From Paramacrobiotus metropolitanus (Eukaryota > Tardigrada > Eutardigrada > Parachela > Macrobiotidae): a stretch of DNA of 64,000 nt. The DNA is taken from assembly GCF_019649055.1 (NCBI RefSeq), contig NW_026570263.1:744001-808000 (forward strand), in the 5' to 3' direction. The position numbers were made by a program, and so were the translations under genes. Below the pieces are notes generated by a model. The model searched no databases. It was not told where the DNA came from and saw only the letters and a program-made list of their open reading frames with translations. Numbering within the stretch: the stretch's first letter is position 1; each line of letters begins with the position of its first letter. Below, in pieces: positions 19,201-60,087 of this stretch.

Positions 19201-22200
19201 TCATCCGTTGTAAACCTCGGCGATGCCCCACAGTGCCATGTTGCTGAGTTGGCGGATGTCGACACTTCGCAAGTCGGCATCATCGCGCGCATACGCATGC
19301 CGACTGCCATCTGGATGGAATCCGCTGTACCTGCGTATGAAGCAGGCACTATACAGATAAGAAGCGCTGCGCCGTTTCCCAAGGGAATTAAGAAAAAAGG
19401 CACACCAATACGTACGCTGCTTGCAGGTATGTACATTGTACGTACGTGCATACTTGATACGCGTGCATGTTGTAAACCTGTATCATATTTTATTATTATT
19501 TTATTTTATTATTATCATAGTTTATGCAGAAAAGTACACGTCATTGTATTAGCGTCAACTTGCTTGTTTATGAAGCGACGGATGTGGTACCAGTCGTCTG
19601 GGTAGGGGAGGCTGCGGCACCAGCGAGCGTGCACCGCCGCCACTTTGGCGTGAACGGCGGCGCTGGCCGGGGGAAAGGCCCGCTCCATGGCCCACATGAA
19701 GCGCCGGCGGACCGGCTCCCAGTCGTCTGCGTCCCGCCAGTGACAGATGAATCGCGGTATGATGATCAGCGTCGCATCCAGAACGGACGGTTGCTGTACA
19801 TGTCCAAGCACTAGCGAATTCGAGTGGGAACCAAAGTCCCAACAGGACCTGCACTTGTTAATAAAGCGCTTTTCTTGGTTTGGTTGCCGCCAGTTCTGCA
19901 GCTCCCCTCTCATCTCGATAAACAAATCCGTCCCGCGCATCTCCAGCCCATCGAGCATCAGTTGGTCACAATGGTCCAGGAAGCGCAATAGTAGATTGGG
20001 TTCCGGGGACATCAGACAGAAGGATTTCAATACCAGGAACGGCAGCTGGATGCGCATAACTTCCAACAACTTCTCCACATACCACAGCATGTGCCAGTTA
20101 AACGGATCCCCCTCCCAGTCATGGGCGCGTGCGATGAGGGTGACACTCCGCGTTTTGGGCGTGATGACCCGGCTCAGTAGCATCGCGAAGCGGCAACAGT
20201 AGTTATGGTCACCGCACTGTGTGCTTGTACTTTGCAGATTATCTGCTAAAACACTGATGTGTTGCGCCGTGCGGGGATCGCCCAGTATCGCTTGCCACAA
20301 TGCACACACTCTGCAGAACAGATGGATACAAGATTTAGCAACGCGCAGCTGCTTTATGAGGTGTGATTTGGTCTAGACGCAGACTTGCACCTTTAATGGA
20401 GGAAACCGATCACCACACATAATACAGTTACCTATCTACGAGAAGTAGCCTACTCCACTTCAGTTTTAAAGGTTTCTCCAGCAAAGGAATGAGATTTTCT
20501 TAAAACTACAGAGAAACGTTCACTCTACGCTAAATTCTCTTTAAGATGGTGGGTTAAGCATTATTTTAGAACATATCCTTGAATTTAGGCGCATTATTTT
20601 ATCTGCAAGATTGCCGGTTCACCTTGGCCCACATTAAGCGCTCTGCCTGTTTGCATTATAAATACACTGCGCAACACTCGTAGGAGCAGGCATGACACAA
20701 ATTTCTTGCTTCTGCGGATACAGACATCTTCACGTCCCAGCATCAATTATCATTGCATAAGAGTGGAGTATGTAGCATTAAAATTTTCGAAAGTTCTTGT
20801 TAGTCACTGCGTAGCACACATATGCAAATGAAAAGAGGTTCATGGATTTTAGTTTCTCAACAAAGCTTACTTTACGTGGTAGTTGGTACTATTATATTTT
20901 CGAATAAACTGGAAAACCGATAAATTATTCATACCTGAACGTTCTGTAAGGTTTTAGTGCTCGCAGTACCGGTATTGAGCAGTGCTTATTCGCTGCACAT
21001 ATCTGCGCGGAAGCAGAAGCGAATGTGCAGTGTTCTGTCGTAATTGATTGTTTTTTTCTACCGCGGTGCAAATTTTGCAGTTATTCTAAATTAATTTATT
21101 TGAAATGTATTTAATGGAAGGAAGACTAACCAGAGCACTACTTCCTTCACCAAATTCAGAAAATCTAAGTTTTAAAAAAAAGGTGGGAGATTACTGTGGT
21201 ATATTAAAAAATATTGTCACTTCCGCCTCACTTGCAAAGGTTGATCGTCAAACGTAGCTGAACAAATATTTAAAAATGTGAATGGGTGCACAACATTACA
21301 TAGCACAGTACATACTGTTACTATGAAGTTGAGTATGAACTATTGGCATTTACCATAATAATTATTATTTTAATTTTGGGACGACCGAATTTTTGGACTT
21401 TCACTTCAAGCAGACATAACTCAAAAAGCGCTTATAGTCGCCCTTTTTTCATTGCGATGAAGTGGGGGATCATGAATTCGCATTGTAATAGTAAGTATGC
21501 TATGTACTCATTCAATTGTTGTTTTATAAAAATAGTAAGTGATTACAGAATATGTTATCGTACTATTGTGCCCGAAGATTGCCCCCGACGAGCGGTCTGA
21601 TGTTGAGCTATGCTGGGAAGAACGTACAGGAAAGAGTGCACCTGCGATAGAAGACCGGAGCAACCAACGCTTGTGGTCGGATATGCTGACTGCCGGGAAA
21701 CTGGAAGTGGAAGCTTTAAAAGAGAGCGCCGACGTTATTGCCTCTGCTCGTCTGTTGGCTGCCTCTGCTAGGGATGCCAGTGCCTGGTTGTTTGCATTGC
21801 CGGTCGCCAGCCTTGGCACACTGGTGGACGATGCCGGTCTGCGGATCGCTGTTGCTTTGCGGATGGGTGCGCCTATTTGTAAGGAGCTTAAAAGTCGGTG
21901 TGCTGAAATGGTTGATACACGCCGGTTACATGGATTGTCGTGCGTCAAAAGCCAAGGAAGGTTCAGGAGGCATGCGAGTTTGGATAGCGTGATTCAGCGT
22001 AGCCTGGGATCAGCAAAGGTGCCGACAATCTTGGAGCCTCCCGGACTGTGCAGACGGGACGGGAAGCGGCCAGACGGCTTATCACTCTTCCCATGGAGAA
22101 ATGGCCTCCCTCTGATATGGGATGAGACAGTTTGTGACACATTCGCTACTTCGTATATAGCTGGCTGTGCAGAAGCAGCGGGATCGGCTGCTGAAGACGC

Positions 22201-51386: not shown

Positions 51387-52898
51387 CTATGAGGCACTGC
51401 TACTGCTGGTCGTGCCCAGTGAATGTTTCGACAGAAACAATTCATAGATTCCCCACAGCGCCAGTCTGCTGAGTTGGCCGAGAGGCACACTTCTCAAGTC
51501 GACGTGGTCCCACGCGTGCGGACTGCCATCCGAATGGAACCCGCTGAATCTGCAGGCACAGCAACAGTGCTCGTATTTTTTTACCATTCTACCTTTTTAA
51601 ATAGCAGCAGCAACGTTTAAATTTGAATCCTTACAAGTAAGCAGTATTACGCGAATGCACTTTTTCTTATATTGATGACCTTTGCCAGTACGCGTACTAG
51701 AACTACACAAACACATGTGCAGCTGATGAGATACCGGTGCATCGGTGCAGGTTAGACGACAATGCTTGATGACGTACATGTTGAGGAAGTAGCGGATGGG
51801 TTGCCATTCCTGCGGGTACTGCAGTGTCTGGCACCAGCGCGCGCGCACCGCCGCCACTTTGCTGCGAACGTCGGCCGTGGCCGGGGGCAACGCCCGGTCC
51901 TTGACCCACATCAGGCGCCGCCGGACCGGCTCCCAGCCGTCGCGGCACTCCAGGACCAGGCGGGCAATGTCGACCAGTGTCCCATCCAACACCGACTGCA
52001 CATGTACACCATTGGGTCGGGCTTGGCCGAAGAAGCGGCGTTCCCTAAAGGGCAAGGAATGGAGGGCGTGTCCGTGCGACCACATTTCCTGATAAAGTTG
52101 TCCTTGCACTTGCCACCCCTCCAGGACAAGTTGTTGTTGTTGTTTTGTTGTTTAATGAGCTTAATGTCTACAACAATCAGGGATGTCCTGCACGAGGTCA
52201 TAGACTAAAATGGGAGATAAGGCTATCGCATTAGCGAAAGCCTTACATTTAAAACATCACAAATTTAGACAACATACAGTTTTACAGTAAACAGTAATGA
52301 TCAACATGAAGTTGAAGGAAACGCTTAGTCCATTTCAAATCCGCCATTTAACCGTATCCAGGCAAGAATCAAAACTGTTAATGCGGTTGTATGATTCATG
52401 GGGCAGTCTGATTTCATTCCACAAGTGCGCCATTAGATAGGCAAAGCTCCGTTCGCTGATGAACTTCCGTCCGTCCGAGGCGCACGTGTCCACGGGTTCC
52501 ACTGCGTAGGGATGTTCATCAAGGGACGTTATCTGACGTGTTCTGCCTGCAATACAAACGGCGGCAGCACCAAGTTTTTCCCGAAGTTTGAAAAATTTCT
52601 CCCCATAAGGTACAAGACGGAACACCATCTTGTACATCAGGAGCAGAGATTTTCGGATACGACAAAATAACAGGGACTTGTAACCCGCTTTTTTTAACGT
52701 TTCGGCATACTCAAACTTGCAAGGTCCGAATCTGATACTTTTTAAAAATCGGTATTGGCAGTCTTCTAACCATAGAATGTCCAAGTTAGGACATTAGTGG
52801 TTCTATGGGAATGAACCTATAGACCAGGACACGAGTGGTTCACTTGGTTCTGAACCAATAGAACCAATAAAAAGACGCTAACATTAAATAGATCTAAG

Positions 52899-54236
52899 TG
52901 TACCTATAGAACCACACAGAACCACCGTAGAACCACTTTAGTACCACAACTGAACCGCGTCTGCTGTCAGTCGCTAACACGCTGCCGCACTACCCGTCTC
53001 CTGTCGTGAACCAGTGAACCTATAGAACCACACAGAACCACTATAGAACCACAAGTGAACCACGTCTGCTGTCAGTCGCTGACACGCTGCCGCACTACCC
53101 GTCTCCTGTCGTGAACCGGTGAACCTATAGAACCACACAGAACCACCATAGAACCACTATAGAACCACAAGTGAACCACGTCTGCTGTCAGTCGCTGACA
53201 CGCTGTCGCATTACCCATCTCCTACTATGAACCGGTGAACCTATAGAACCACACAGAACCACCATAGAACCACTATAGAACCACAAGTGAACCACGTCTG
53301 CTGTCAGTCGCTGACACGCTGCCGCACTACCCGTCTCCTGTCGTGAACCGGTGAACCTATAGAACCACACAGAACCACCATAAAACCACTATAGAACCAC
53401 AACTGAACCACGTCTGCTGTCAGTCGCCGACACGCTGTCGCATTACCCATCTCCTACTATGAACCGGTGAACCTATAGAACCACACAGAACCACCATAGA
53501 ACCACTATAGAACCACAAGTGAACCACGTCTGCTGTCAGTCGCTGACACGCTGCCGCTCTACCCGTCTCCTGTCGTGAACCGGTGAACCTATAGAACCAC
53601 ACAGAACCACCATAGAACCACTATAAACCACAACTGAACCACCTCTGCTGTCAGTCGCCGACACGCAGTCGCATTACCCATCTCCTACTATGAACCGGTG
53701 AACCTATAGAACCACACAGAACCACCATAAACCACTATAGAACCACAACTGAACCACGTCTGCTGTCAGTCGCCGACACGCCGCCGCATTACCCCTCTCC
53801 TACTATGAACCGGTGAACCTATAGAACCACACAGAACCACCATAGAACCACTATAGAACCACAACTGAACCACCTCTGCTGTCAGTCGCCGACACGCTGT
53901 CGCATTACCCATCTCCTACTACGAACCGGTGAACCTATAGAACCACACAGAACCATCATAGAACCACTATAGAACCACAACTAAACCACGTCTGCTGTCA
54001 GTCGCCGACACGCCGCCGCATTACCCCTCTCCTACTATGAACCGGTGAACCTATAGAACCACACAGAATCACCATAGAACCACTATAGAACCACAAGTGA
54101 ACCACGTCTGCTGTCAGTCGCTGACACGCTGCCGCACTGCCCATCTCCTGTCGTGAACCAGTGAACCTATAGAGCCACACAGAACCACCTTGGAACCACT
54201 ATAGAACCACATCTGCTGCCAGCCGACGACAGGCTG
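52899..54236. repeat. Minisatellite, left arm, ~116-bp unit x ~11
   Basis: Starts of the unit (GAACCGGTGAACCTATAGAA) fall at about 53007, 53113, 53229, 53345, 53461, 53577, 53692, 53806, 53922 and 54037. The period is thus about 116 bp, with one shorter unit. Each unit combines repeated GAACCAC words with CTGCTGTCAGTCGC and an 'accCGTCTCCT' block. Units alternate between two sub-variants (CCGTCTCCTGTCGT and CCATCTCCTACTAT). Confidence 0.9.
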
Positions 54237-54529
54237 CTTAATTTTTTCTATCTTCCCTGGGTCTACATAATTACTTTGTGGATTTAGGCGCGCTTAATGT
54301 CAGTATCTCTTGATAACTCAGTTCAAAACTGTTTTTTTATCGTTTTGATTCGGTGGTGTAAAAACGATTCTCTTAGACTTGGAAAAAATCAGCAGTAGTT
54401 TTTGCAAATAAAAAGTAAGATTTGAGCTAAAGAAAAAGCAGAAATTTTTAAGCGGAGAAATGATAGACACCGTCGCGGGTGTACAATTTTGGAGTTCATT
54501 GCACAACAATGGTATCAGTTTCCGAAATA

Positions 54530-55390
54530 TTAATCCAATGGCATCTGGTTGTCGAGACCATCTGAACAGAGCTTCGCTAAATACTTATTGCGCCTCTTGA
54601 TTAGCCGGTGCAAGAAAAAGAGCTGGCGATATTTGGTCATCTTGAGCAACGCGAATCTGTACCGTCCCAGCCATGCATTCGTTTGCTCACAAGCTTGCGT
54701 ATTCGCTGATTTCAGATTGGGATGAGATTCGATGATCCGAGCTGGGTTGTACTGAGTGTGACACTGATGACCGACATGGCTTTTCAGATGGAACTTATCG
54801 ATGACCTTTCCAACGGCTCTCCACATGTTATTGTATGGCTTTGGTAATGGTAATGGCAGTTTGGTAGCTTTTAGAGAGTCCAAGTTGCACATATTGTCGT
54901 AAGCAATAAATATCGAGCCCCATTTCTCCGCCGGATAAGATTTCAGTGTTTGGCATAGCCAGGCCACAACGATAAGAAAAACCTGAGACACGGATTCCGA
55001 CCTACAACGTAATCGGTGGTACAACGTAACGCTATCGGCCGACAAACACATCAGTTTTTTAAAGAGCGTGCCTGTACATTATACAAAATCCTTGTGTAAG
55101 AAAGTTGTCATAATCATACAGTTGCGAGAGCCTCCCTGTCTCAATTCAAACAAGAATTTCACTTACTTATGCAAGGGAGAAAACCCATCAACATGTCCAC
55201 ACGCTCGTACGATGAACAGGTATCCTCGAGACCGTTGTGGATGTGTCGACGGACTCCCGGTATTTTTATAACAAGGCAAAAGAAAGGCATCACTTTCAAT
55301 CGCTTCCTCGTCTGTATCGGTGGTTGCGCTGACCATAGAATTTTCTTCAGTTTCTGTGTTGCTTTCTTTATTTTCCGGCAACGTAATCAA
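54530..55390 (-). CDS. KDZ-like transposase, degraded C-terminal part
   Basis: The main block (55051-54530, 173 codons) shows LMCLSADSVTLYHR, WGSIFIAYDNMCNLD, GKVIDKFHLKSHVGHQC, then the Glu-Gln motif ACEQTNAWLGRYR and RLIKRRNKYL. This order (YDNxCNL, D-FH...H..C, EQ-N) is that of KDZ/CxC-type transposases. An upstream piece at 55390-55163 gives an acidic linker and FIVRACGHVDGFSPLHK, followed by a consensus donor, so an intron of about 90-110 bp probably separates the two. The N-terminal half cannot be reconstructed. The catalytic core is incomplete, so the element looks non-autonomous now. Confidence 0.6.
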
Positions 55391-56199
55391 ATTTCCGTGT
55401 GCGCTGTGTAAGAATGGCGAAATCCCTGTAATTTTTTATCTTTAAGAGAGCGCCTTACGGGAAAAGACAACGTATAACCGTTTAATGGGCCAGGTCAATT
55501 GCTCCGTGTAAGTCTTACGCGACGCGCAAGCGGCAGTCGGGTAAAATATCATGACGTCAGGGCGCGTAAGCAGGTAAACGATTTGATTGGTAAACCAGAA
55601 TTCTGGGATGGGTTTTCCGCTTACCCGTGCGAGTAACTGTTGCGCTTCGAAATCTAAGCGCAACCGTTAGGCCCAAACTACGAGTAACTAGTACTCTCCT
55701 GCAAAGATGAACAAAATTTTGTTTGTTTGAACCAAAAGTGCATCCAGCGACCCAGATTCACACTCGTAAACTCAGAATTAACTTTTTTAACGTATTACCA
55801 CATTAAAGCATCAAAAATAAAGTTTTCGGTTCCACTTCAGTTTTTCAGTTGTTCAATTTCTTTCTTGCGACGGAAGCGTACTCGACTTACGATTGGACGA
55901 TATATTTGTCGCTGAGTCATGGACAGATTTTTACGCGTTTCTCCGTTACCCAACGCGTAATGGTTACCCAGATGCAATTGACACTTGCCCAATAAACTAC
56001 AAGTACCAAAGGTACTTCTATACTATAAAGCAGACGCTCATGGGGTATGTACTGACTTGCGTTCATACGATTCTGCAGATTGCGTTGTTTTTTTTTACGG
56101 CATCAAAAATTTAATTCTATTTTTAATTGCAAACGACCGCAGAGTATAAATCGGTAAACCTGTTAAATCAACCCAACTGCTAAAAAATTTTAACATCAA

Positions 56200-56325
56200 A
56201 ACAGAAAGAGTTCAGTTAACTTTTCAACTCCATCCATTGTTCCTAAGACTGAAGCCGCATTTCCCCGCTGAATCTCCAATGATAACCGCTGTCGGAGAAA
56301 TTCAAGGGACTGACGGGCTTCTTCA
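56200..56325 (-). mobile_element. RLE-family 3' fragment inside the KDZ-like element (copy 8)
   Basis: The minus strand reads LEFLRQRLSLEIQRGNAASV, then LGTMDG and a Leu/Phe end with stop, i.e. the last ~40 residues of the RLE protein. It adjoins the right minisatellite arm. Confidence 0.75.
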
Positions 56326-56334
56326 TAATGGCTG

Positions 56335-56985
56335 ACAAGCGTAGGTAATACGGCAGCGTGTCGGCGACTGACAGGAGACGTGCTTCAGTTGTGGTTCTAT
56401 AATGGTTCTATGGTGGTTCTGTGTGGTTCTACAGGTTCCCCGGTTCATAGTACGAAAGGGGTAATACGGCAGCGTGTCGGCGACTGACAGCAGGCGTGGT
56501 TTAGTTGTGGTTCTATAGTGGTTCTATGGTGGTTCTGTGTGGTTCTATAGGTTCACCGGTTCATAGTAGGAGATGGGTAATGCGACAGCGTGTCGGCGAC
56601 TGACAGCAGACGTGGTTCACTTGTGGTTCTATAGTGGTTCTATGGTGGTTCTGTGTGGTTCTATAGGTTCACCGGTTCATAGTAGGAGATGGGTAATGCG
56701 GCGGCGTGTCGGCGACTGACAGCAGAGCGTGGTTCAGTTGTGGTTCTATAGTGGTTCTATGGTGGTTCTGTGTGGTTCTGTAGGTTCACCGGTTCACGAC
56801 AGGAGACGGGTAGTGCGGCAGCGTGTCAGCGACTGACAGAAGCCGTGGTACAGTTGTGGTTCTGTAGTGGTTCTATAGGTTCATCGGTTCACTTTGTGGA
56901 ATTGTTAGTGAGACTGCGTGTCGGCAAGTAAGTGTCCTGCGGGAGCAATGTTGGTTCTTTGTGGTTCTATAGGTTCAGAACCAGT
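56335..56985. repeat. Minisatellite, right arm, inverted relative to the left, ~116-bp unit x ~5-6
   Basis: The same unit as the left arm, read on the opposite strand (GTGGTTCTATAGTGGTTC, CAGCGTGTCGGCGACTGACA). The two arrays together make very long subterminal inverted repeats. Confidence 0.9.
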
Positions 56986-59925
56986 GAACCACTAATGTCC
57001 TAACTTGGACATTCTCTCCTTCTAACTGATCAATCAGTAGCTTATGTTGGCAGAAAGCTACGGAACTGCCATAATCGGCTATCGGTTTAACAAGGGAATC
57101 GTACAACTTCGTCCGAGCTGCACTGTTTTGATATGGAAACAGTGCGTTTAGGTAACGAATGCGTTTTTTCATGCGGGTAGCTAGATTTTCGCTGTTACGT
57201 TTCCAGTTTAGATGTCGGTCCAGGTAGATACCTAGATACTTTGCATTTTCCAATACGGGGATATTTTCACTGTTTAACGTGTACACACTATCTGGCACTT
57301 TTATACGCTTTCTGGTGAATCTTACATGAGCGCTTTTCTTTGCATTGAAGTTTAGCTGGTGTTCAGCCGCATATCTAGAAATAATGTCTAAAGCTGATTG
57401 AAACACCTGCTCGTCTTGAGGAGACTCAACTTTTTTTAGAAGGCATACATCATCAGCGAAAACAAATAATTCACAGTCTTCTGGTAGATCCGGAATATCG
57501 TTCATGACACACAGATACATCTGAGGGCCTACCATCGACCCTTGTGGAACGCCGCTTGTTACTTCTCGAAGAGACGACAGTTTACCGTTTACATTCACTG
57601 CCTGAAAACGACCTTGCAAATAGTCACTCAAAAGTTCCACGAGAGCTTCGTTTAAGTTCAGTTCACGAAGTTTGGTTATCACGGTGGAGTGGTCAACACG
57701 ATCAAAAGCTTTACTGCAGTCTAGAAAAACACAGTCAACATCTATACCACAGTCAATAAAGTTCATGACCTTTTGCACAAGGATTTGATTTAGCAGTTCG
57801 GGTGAATGTTTTTTACGATAACCAAATTGGAAGCTGCGAATAAGATTGTTAGATGTTAGATGATTCGTTAATCTACCGTTAATTATTCGCTCGAAAACTT
57901 TAGATAACGGATGAAGACAGCTAACTGGCCTCCAGTTTTTGGGTATCGTGAGATCACAGGACTGTTTTGGTACGGGGGTAACATAAGAAATTTTCCAACT
58001 GTTCGGAAATCGTCGTTCAGATATGCAACAATTGAACAAAATTTTAAGGGGAACAATTATTGCCGAACCACAGGTTCTAATGAGATGATTTGTCACAGTA
58101 AACGGTCCGCTACTTTTCGAAAGATCGACTGCTTTTAACGCTTCCCAGATGTCACATTCATTGACGAAATTTTCATTTGGTCCAGATTTCTTGCCCAACG
58201 CTGATGACAGACGGCAGTGTGACGGACACGGTAAAAGAGAGTCAAAATAGTGTGCGTTCAAAACTTCCGCTTTCTCTTCGTCGGTTATAGCAACTTTACC
58301 ATCATGGTGCAGAATTGGCATGCCCTGTTTATCGACGCTTTTTCGTACATAAGACCAAAACTTTTTCGGGTCACTTCTGGAGGCTGTAGCAACATCCTGT
58401 AGTTGTCGATTCATAAACTTTCTCGTCATTAAATCACACTTCTTAGCATAGCTTTTCCAAGCTATTTTTAGTTTTCCCTTTCGCTCACCGACACCCGCCC
58501 TAACGTAACGCCTGTGTGCAGTATCTCTCGTTCTGATAGCTCGCTTTAGCGCAACAGGAAACGATATCGCGAATCGCTTCGGTTTTAGTTTTATTCTTTC
58601 AAAAAATGCCATAGCTTTGGTGACAATAACTTCCTCGATTTTGTCAGCCATTTCTGAAGAATCCATATTTTTTAATTCAATATTCCAGTTAGTTTGAAAA
58701 AGGTCATTTCGATAATTTGGGATATTTTCGGGCAGAAATTTCCACACAACTTTTTCTGGCTGCTTAAAAATGGATTTTGGAAGCAGAGCAACTATGGAGA
58801 CGGCATGATGGTCATTTGTACTTGATGTCGGGCTTACCACATTTACAGCCTCAATATACCAGTTTGTTGGTACAATCGCTAAATCAAGAATGTTGCTATT
58901 TCTGGTAGGAATCGTAACAATCTGCTTGAAGTTACACTCTTTTAAAAGTTTCAGCAGACACTGACCGTGGACAGTAGTTGACGTCAATTGCTGCCAATTA
59001 ATTTTCGGGCAGTTAAAATCCCCGAGTAAGACAAACCGGCTTACATCGTTTTCGCAAAATTTTTCGCTGATATGCTCCACAAACCGTGGTAACACTTCAC
59101 CAATCATATCAGGTGACCCGTAAAATACGCCAACAATAATGTTGAATGCACTTATCTCAACCGCTACGAACTCAAAATTGTCACTTTCAAGGTCGGTCCT
59201 TCTTTTCCCCCCTAATTTCTTGTTTGTTACCAGTGCTACACCACCACCAGATTTACCGAGTCGCACTCGACGGAAAACTTCAAAAGATCGCCCATTCCGG
59301 AACAATTTATCCGGCAAACCTGCTCTGTCTTTTGTCTCCGTTAGTCCAATAATATCGTACCCAACACTAAAAGCTTTCACTTCCGCCGATTTTGAAGAAA
59401 TACCGTTTATATTGCACAACTTTATCAAAATTTTAGATTTCGGTTTTTTACTGCCACAGTTATTCGTCGTGCGCGTGCGCAGTTATTCGTCGTGCGCAGT
59501 GCGGCTGGAGGGCCTGCAGGTAGGTCGGTACCGCCGGGCATTGGTGGCGGAAGGATTTGAGCAGGAGGAACGGCAGCTGGATGGCCATGATGGCAAATAA
59601 ATCCACCACCCAGTTGGCGATGTGCCACTCAAAGTACAGATCCGCCTCCCAGTCCCGGCGTGCGGTGATGGTGACGCTCTTCGTGGCGGGACTGATTGTG
59701 CGGCACAACACCATCGCGACGCGGCGACAGTTATGGTCGCCGCACTTCGTGCTGGTGAAGTTCTCTGTTAAGATGCTGATGTGGTGCGTCGCGCGGGCGC
59801 CGGACAGTATCACTTGCCACAAAGCACACACTCTGTACAAATAGAAAAAAATTGCATTTGTCCAGAGAAACACCCTACTGTACGCATACTTCGGTTGGCC
59901 CATTATTTCAATCAGTTCCGCTTTG

Positions 59926-59970
59926 GGGATCCTAATATTAATCACTTGATTAATACTAGGATCCCTAAAG
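59926..59970. repeat. Imperfect ~40-bp palindrome in F-box 2 intron
   Basis: GGGATCCTAATATTAATCA and TGATTAATACTAGGATCCC, reading in from each side, are separated by only a few bases. It is similar in style to the palindrome at 27928-27973. Confidence 0.65.
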
Positions 59971-60087
59971 ATGCCGGAAACCGGCATCTGGTGAATGCGC
60001 TGCCTTCAGCACACATTGGAAACCAGGCACCTCCTTTAATAAGTATCACGGTACGAGTACAAACTATGCACCAGAACAAAACCGAAT

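Follow-up and report, generated by a model that had tools for sequence, protein, structure and literature searches.

What kind of mobile element carries, just inside each of its ends, a long array of the same minisatellite unit in inverted orientation, and what might such arrays do? The question is raised by one locus in a stretch of 64,000 nucleotides of the tardigrade Paramacrobiotus metropolitanus (contig NW_026570263.1, positions 744,001 to 808,000), which is referred to here as the window and corresponds to G000:C43:744001-808000 in the genome assembly that was searched (169.8 Mb, 533 contigs). An earlier note, made from the letters of the window, had placed a KDZ-like DNA transposon at 52773-57018. 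On the best reading of the results, the element is an internally deleted, non-autonomous copy of a KDZ (Kyakuja-Dileera-Zisupton) transposon of predicted cut-and-paste type, and it is probably of the foldback type, with arms that would act as docking arrays for the transposase and that appear to exchange sequence with each other.

The insertion itself is directly visible. The octamer CTTCTAAC is present on both sides of the element, and the terminal repeat AGAATGTCCAAGTTAGGACATTAGTGGTTC and its inverted counterpart are identical at 30 of 30 positions, each containing the short palindrome given in Table 1. The triplets beyond these repeats are unequal, being CAT on the left and, reading inwards, GAG on the right. 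Because CAT and CTC sit outside the inverted repeat and reach up to the duplication, the element has to be counted from 52771, 2 bp further out than the left end given in the earlier note, whose right end, perfect terminal repeats and 8-bp duplication were all recovered. When the element was removed in silico and the flanks were joined with one copy of the duplication, an open frame of 963 amino acids spanning the junction was obtained, and a Pfam scan of the open reading frame (ORF) in the right flank revealed the endonuclease and reverse transcriptase domains of a long interspersed nuclear element (LINE). Therefore, the insertion was clean and took place, with an 8-bp duplication, in the reading frame of a LINE, which it interrupted. 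Chance and assembly artefact were rejected as explanations because of the duplications, the restored LINE frame and the many copies described below.

Table 1. Features of the element and of its insertion site, in window positions.
Feature	Position	Strand	Basis
Whole element, 5'-CAT...CTC-3'	52771..57018, 4248 bp		target duplication position; CAT/GAG triplet pattern
Left target-site duplication CTTCTAAC	52763..52770		flank comparison
Right target-site duplication CTTCTAAC	57019..57026		flank comparison
Left terminal inverted repeat, 30 bp, containing AATGTCC-AAGTTA-GGACATT	52774..52803	+	repeat search
Right terminal inverted repeat, 30 bp	56986..57015	-	repeat search
Left arm, ~116-bp unit array, GAACC motif mostly every 8-11 bp	52919..54215	+	repeat finder, motif spacing
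Right arm, inverted array of the ~116-bp unit of the left arm	56344..56925	-	repeat finder, inverted-repeat search
Last transposase exon (KDZ core), 173-aa ORF	54530..55051	-	ORF, homology, alignment
Second-to-last transposase exon (RGYLFIVRACGH block)	55169..55432	-	59% identical to C57 copy
Interrupted LINE reading frame	56978-59428 and 52335-52769	-	endonuclease/reverse transcriptase; 963 aa after in-silico removal

In the earlier note, many copies with matching ends and 8-bp duplications were to count as support, and such copies are found. The 30-mer terminus, with up to 3 mismatches, has 61 matches in the genome, and the backwards control has 0. The fetched set comprises 19 pairs of ends in convergent orientation, none spanning more than 8.5 kb, and the single-ended KDZ locus L031 (an 11-kb pair, C24:369153-380307, lies outside it), which together with the window element gives 20 two-ended elements and 41 ends. 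Exact 8-bp duplications were present in 8 of the 19 scored elements and in none of 342 mismatched pairings of flanks; of the lengths from 5 to 11 bp, only 8 bp shows exact duplications. The scoring excludes L031 and also L030, one end of which was missed by the script; inspected by eye, L030 carries CTCTATAT at both flanks, which brings the duplications to 9 of 20. In L014, L026 and L027, a duplication-like 7- or 8-mer, also recognised by eye, is displaced by 4-5 extra bases; the other elements show no duplication. The end matches, the duplications and the restored LINE frame together establish that the family has been mobile. The outermost triplets of the 41 ends are CAT (20), GAG (19), CAC (1) and GCG (1), and one CAT and one GAG are combined in 17 of the 20 two-ended elements. 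L012 has CAT at both ends and arms that best match different elements, and it therefore has the appearance of a recombinant. A few extra bases, often GAGAG- or CTCTC-like, are visible by eye between element end and flank in several copies that have no clean duplication (L014, L022, L023, L026, L027 and L029), and these are possibly filler from end processing or end-to-end junctions.

The transposase fragment lies in the 173-aa ORF, which bears YDNMCNL, DKFHLKSHVGHQC and CEQTN, the motifs already pointed out in the earlier note (the last as EQTN). In relatives, the colinear exons follow the order CxC5, DGxwK, CxEEP, RGYLF and core, some relatives showing fewer; the CxC5, DGxwK and CxEEP exons were not detected in the window element at E 1e-3, and the copy, which retains only the last two of the five exons, is therefore non-autonomous. 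The window ORF has 64 matches across the genome, among which are all three loci (C65, C129 and C515) that exceeded the cut-off in a genome search with the Pfam KDZ model PF18758; a search of 14 control genomes with the same model gave no match. Moreover, 15 of 27 aligned relative cores matched PF18758 with E values no higher than 1, the best being 8e-9. The alignment did not include L052 and L053, which contain stops, C130 and C84, which are split between pieces, the broken C515, or L063, L064 and L068. The KDZ assignment of the earlier note is thus upheld through the relatives, which fall in KDZ and not in another superfamily.

The connection between the ends and the gene is provided by C129, a relative 60% identical to the window ORF that exceeds the curated PF18758 cut-off. 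Its KDZ-positive gene is flanked by GAG-AGTATCGCCGAGTTAGGGTGTTTT and CAT-AGTATCGCCAAGTTAGGGTGTTTT, with an 8-bp duplication, GGTAAAGA, and the element carries inverted arrays of its own. The C129 and window families have in common the CAT/GAG triplets and the core CCAAGTTAGG (1 mismatch at one C129 end), and because the C129 gene sits between such related ends, the ends of the window family are linked to KDZ. The CxC5 domain (PF18718, KDZ-associated according to Pfam) was found upstream of the C57 copy (6.1e-9), which in its core has 83% identity to the window ORF, and at C58 with 27.0 bits (cut-off 26.9). Genome-wide, CxC5 gave 29 matches, 27 of them above cut-off, and a comparison of the two tables places 26 of the 29 within 7 kb of a KDZ match. 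It could be supposed that the element was moved by a transposase of the hAT or P superfamily, with the KDZ gene as a passenger, since 8-bp duplications are not unique to KDZ and are shared with both of these superfamilies, and since the window ORF has no Pfam KDZ match of its own. Such a passenger is, however, highly improbable in view of the KDZ-positive gene that C129 holds between related ends with its own duplication, and of the Pfam scans of the tested cores and exons, in which no hAT or P transposase was matched, the interiors of non-KDZ copies being outside these scans. Scans of the window ORF, the 27 KDZ cores and 10 upstream exons of relatives gave KDZ and CxC5 matches and likewise no match to a Mutator-like (MULE) transposase or to a THAP domain, the interiors of other elements lying outside their scope.

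An AlphaFold2 model of the core exon reached a mean predicted local distance difference test score (pLDDT) of 71.9 and a predicted template modelling score (pTM) of 0.54. A PDB fold search with this model returned 10 matches with E values of at most 10, of which none was as low as 0.001, a profile search of PDB sequences returned 0 matches, and the 40 pattern matches in viral contigs included no KDZ relatives. Locus L022 (G000:C206:125647-133527) contains KDZ genes from two lineages, the first with 76% and the second with 35% identity to the window ORF. The second gene has an AACAG array of its own, so that perhaps one KDZ element is nested there in another.

The inverted arrays described in the earlier note (~11 and 5-6 copies) are well defined. 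The core of the left array (53024-54215) has a period of 116, 10.3 copies and 91% matches, and that of the right array (56344-56876), inverted relative to the left, has the same period, 4.6 copies and 92% matches; degenerate outer units extend the two arrays, on the left from 52919 and on the right to 56925. The arms are complementary at 95% over 383 nt, and with long inverted arms of tandem repeats the element has the structure by which foldback elements are recognised. The repeat finder detected both arms in 14 of the 20 two-ended elements, with units mostly of 105 or 116-118 bp. The motif recurring in the units is kept close to the termini throughout the family: 6-12 copies lie within 250 bp of each of the 41 ends, in the form GAACC at 40 of them (letter-shuffled GAACC gave means of 0.04-0.55). 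The CAT end of L013 has 1 GAACC and 12 GGTTC because L013 has one single array running through it. The copies of 356 bp and 438 bp retain motif clusters only, and retain them at both ends, their two 250-bp stretches overlapping.

Other KDZ lineages of this genome carry other motifs, which were scored by spacing or seen in the repeat unit: GAAAC at C129 and C515, GTATC/CACTG at C1 and C74, GTTCC at C58, C130, C137 and C103, ATTGG at C65, TTTAC at L067, and AACAG at the second gene of L022 and at L069. The spacing of these motifs is similar. Intervals of exactly 10 bp account for 42 of 45 with ATTGG, 29 of 36 with GAAAC and 40 of 54 with AACAG. For GTTCC, 16 of 20 intervals measure 9-11 bp, for CACTG 25 of 42 measure 9 or 11 bp, for TTTAC 15 of 25 measure 10-11 bp, and for the GAACC motif of the window element 51 of 66 measure 8-11 bp. 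An array lies beside the gene at all 13 examined KDZ loci whose identity to the window ORF is 55% or higher (C138, at 60%, is not among the 13) and at 6 of the 22 examined loci below 50%, both numbers being tallies; the six include L053, where the array may lie outside its element, as a candidate end precedes it. For comparison, 6.3% of the 1.45-kb window intervals outside the element contain an array of score at least 200. Mapped onto a tree of the 27 cores, the array label requires 2 changes; shuffled labels required 9.4 on average, and none of 500 shuffles gave so small a number. This clustering is aided by near-copies, and 'no array' in it means none in the fetched piece.

The arrays of a genuine KDZ transposon could nevertheless be passive minisatellites, grown by slippage and arm exchange and bound by nothing. 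Such growth would suit the free variation of array copies among siblings with 97-99% identical interiors (7.1/5.9 in L018, 15.4/2.9 in L020, 8.4/12.9 in L021) and the 14 of 20 further KDZ loci that have no array in the fetched piece. It is rather unlikely, however, given that separate KDZ lineages have different motifs and yet a similar spacing of ~10 bp, that the motif cluster persists at both ends of the shortest copies, and that none of the 13 close loci lacks an array. Spacing near 10-10.5 bp would also suit arrays that bind a host factor or position nucleosomes, affecting silencing or expression, and the inverted arms, which in the window reach 383 nt with 95% complementarity, could give double-stranded RNA for silencing. 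A single host factor does not predict motifs that vary by transposase lineage, nor is the same inward direction of the motif at 40 of 41 ends in its favour, and a host function of this kind is very unlikely.

The preferred reading, with arms as transposase-docking arrays, would operate as follows. A KDZ transposase supplied from elsewhere in the genome would cut at the conserved terminal core CCAAGTTAGG and would use its zinc-cluster part to dock on the numerous GAACC motifs in each arm. Sites about one helical turn apart would bring adjacent motifs to roughly one side of the helix, at least locally, and their inversion between the ends would favour end pairing. The other KDZ lineages, with their own motifs at similar spacing, may be recognised in a corresponding way. 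Exchange between the arms would account for their being homogenised together in many elements and for the interior sometimes being flipped with respect to the CAT and GAG ends. A more far-reaching form of this mechanism, which is put forward only tentatively, is a private docking code in several KDZ lineages, in which a lineage-specific motif of ~5 bp, recurring about every helical turn in inverted arrays at both ends, would allow many transposase molecules to assemble; the array sequence would pick the transposase, the array length would set the frequency, and arm exchange would keep the ends in step and flip the interior.

The exchange of sequence between the two arms is suggested by the pattern of their similarities. 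In the window, the left and right consensus units are 100% identical, and the next element is at 88%. Among the 13 elements with two separately scored arms, the partner arm is the best consensus-unit match for both arms in the window element, L015, L019, L024, L025 and L026, and for one arm only in L017 and L023. The longest exact match is to the partner arm in 7 of the 13; it measures 275 bp in L024 (31 bp with other elements) and 115 bp in the window (27 bp). L021 shares 292 bp with its partner arm, as against 186 bp with siblings whose interiors are ~97% identical. When the CAT end was set left, 11 pairs among 16 interiors shared sequence, and 3 of the 11 shared it only in opposite orientation: L023/L030, the best case, with 1592 bp in four colinear blocks, L022/window with 319 bp, and L024/L027 with 289 bp at 73%. 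Such flipped interiors would be explicable by recombination between the arms, and in the two short cases separate insertions could also account for them.

Several observations weigh against a foldback-type KDZ transposon with docking and exchanging arms, or limit its scope. A clean duplication was not found in 11 of the 20 elements, none of the fetched loci proved to be an intact autonomous element bearing both of these ends, and a Pfam scan of the window ORF alone gives no KDZ match. No array of score at least 200 is contained in the fetched pieces of 16 of the 22 distant KDZ loci, pieces that cover ~1.45 kb on the 3' side at 14 loci and a wider region at C104 and C84; therefore, not every KDZ element needs one. 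The spacing deviates from 10 bp at L062 (8 bp) and at L053 (8-10 bp); moreover, a strict spacing of 10.0 bp drifts relative to a helix of 10.5 bp over long arrays, so that phasing would be local. By consensus unit, the two arms rank each other first in just 6 of the 13 elements, and in L012, L018, L020, L023, L025 and L027 (again 6 of 13) an arm has its longest exact stretch in common with another element; with 7 wins and 6 losses of the partner arm, homogenisation is common and not universal. Finally, 8 of the 11 interior pairs have the same orientation, 4 of them only and 4 mainly.

Zisupton is listed, without description, among tardigrade DNA transposons (PMC11071193). The family resembles Zisupton/KDZ elements of fish, fungi and Pristionchus in the KDZ domain, the CxC cysteine cluster (Pfam's label) and the multi-exon gene (PMC9297572), and Zisupton in the terminal inverted repeats and 8-bp duplications (PMC12730594). 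It differs from KDZ elements as described in these sources by its asymmetric CAT/GAG termini and by the long tandem arrays that lie, inverted to each other, near its two ends; duplications were not detected in the Pristionchus elements (PMC9297572), and Kyakuja is reported to have CA..TG ends and 7-bp duplications and to lack inverted repeats (PMC12730594). The nearest precedent for docking on arms is Galileo, a Drosophila element of the P superfamily, which has long tandem-repeat arms with extra transposase-binding sites; its THAP domain binds sites in the arm repeats, as found by footprint and gel shift, and higher-order transposase assemblies were suggested by the authors (PMC3688188). However, Galileo has a P-type THAP transposase and two sites, which are located in the first and second of four long repeats, and arrays of a ~10-bp motif are not reported for it in that source (PMC3688188). 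FB4 and Tetris of Drosophila share inverted tandem-repeat arms, a variable middle and non-autonomous copies with the present family, and Tetris has 8-10 bp duplications (PMC4079207, PMC4022104). Tm1 of root-knot nematodes is grouped with FB4 and Tetris as a foldback element; in contrast to the KDZ element of the window, such elements are mostly assigned to the Mutator superfamily. FB elements have 10/20/31-bp sub-repeats. The CACTA (En/Spm) elements also have subterminal repeats, which are bound at 12-bp motifs by TNPA, and they differ in their transposase and in their 3-bp duplications. Zisupton does not occur in the main text of PMC4022104.

KDZ elements, as well as foldback arms in Mutator-like and P-like elements, are thus already known. 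Among the papers listed in the literature searches, which did not extend to the first descriptions of Zisupton/KDZ or to Repbase, no account of foldback arms or of lineage-specific phased arrays in KDZ was met. The present family extends the foldback architecture to a third superfamily, one with a little-studied biochemistry. The series of motif arrays within one genome offers a test bed for DNA recognition by KDZ and for long repeated arms, and the CAT and GAG ends act as markers that make arm recombination visible.

Some minor observations concern other loci and other parts of the window. Candidate ends of the form CAT[T/C]ATCTCCAAGTTAGCTA are present in a third KDZ lineage, at position 1106 of L053 and position 1392 of L061 (gene orientation), and the same CAT + CCAAGTTAG at both loci suggests that further KDZ elements of this genome share one terminal signature. 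An apparent end CCAAGTTAGG in C58/C130 was dropped, as it resembles coding sequence by eye. About 0.7 kb past the array of the C57 KDZ locus lies an element-like stretch of 1.7 kb (G000:C57:315103-316810), which has an exact inverted repeat of 22 bp and, further inside, tandem arrays. In the window, the first part of ORF 19515-20309 (-) resembles ORF 59460-59987 (-) by eye, and its last part resembles ORF 51597-52109 (-); the motifs WEPVRRRxMW and AAVxARWC seen in these ORFs suggest a multicopy gene or a repeat family.

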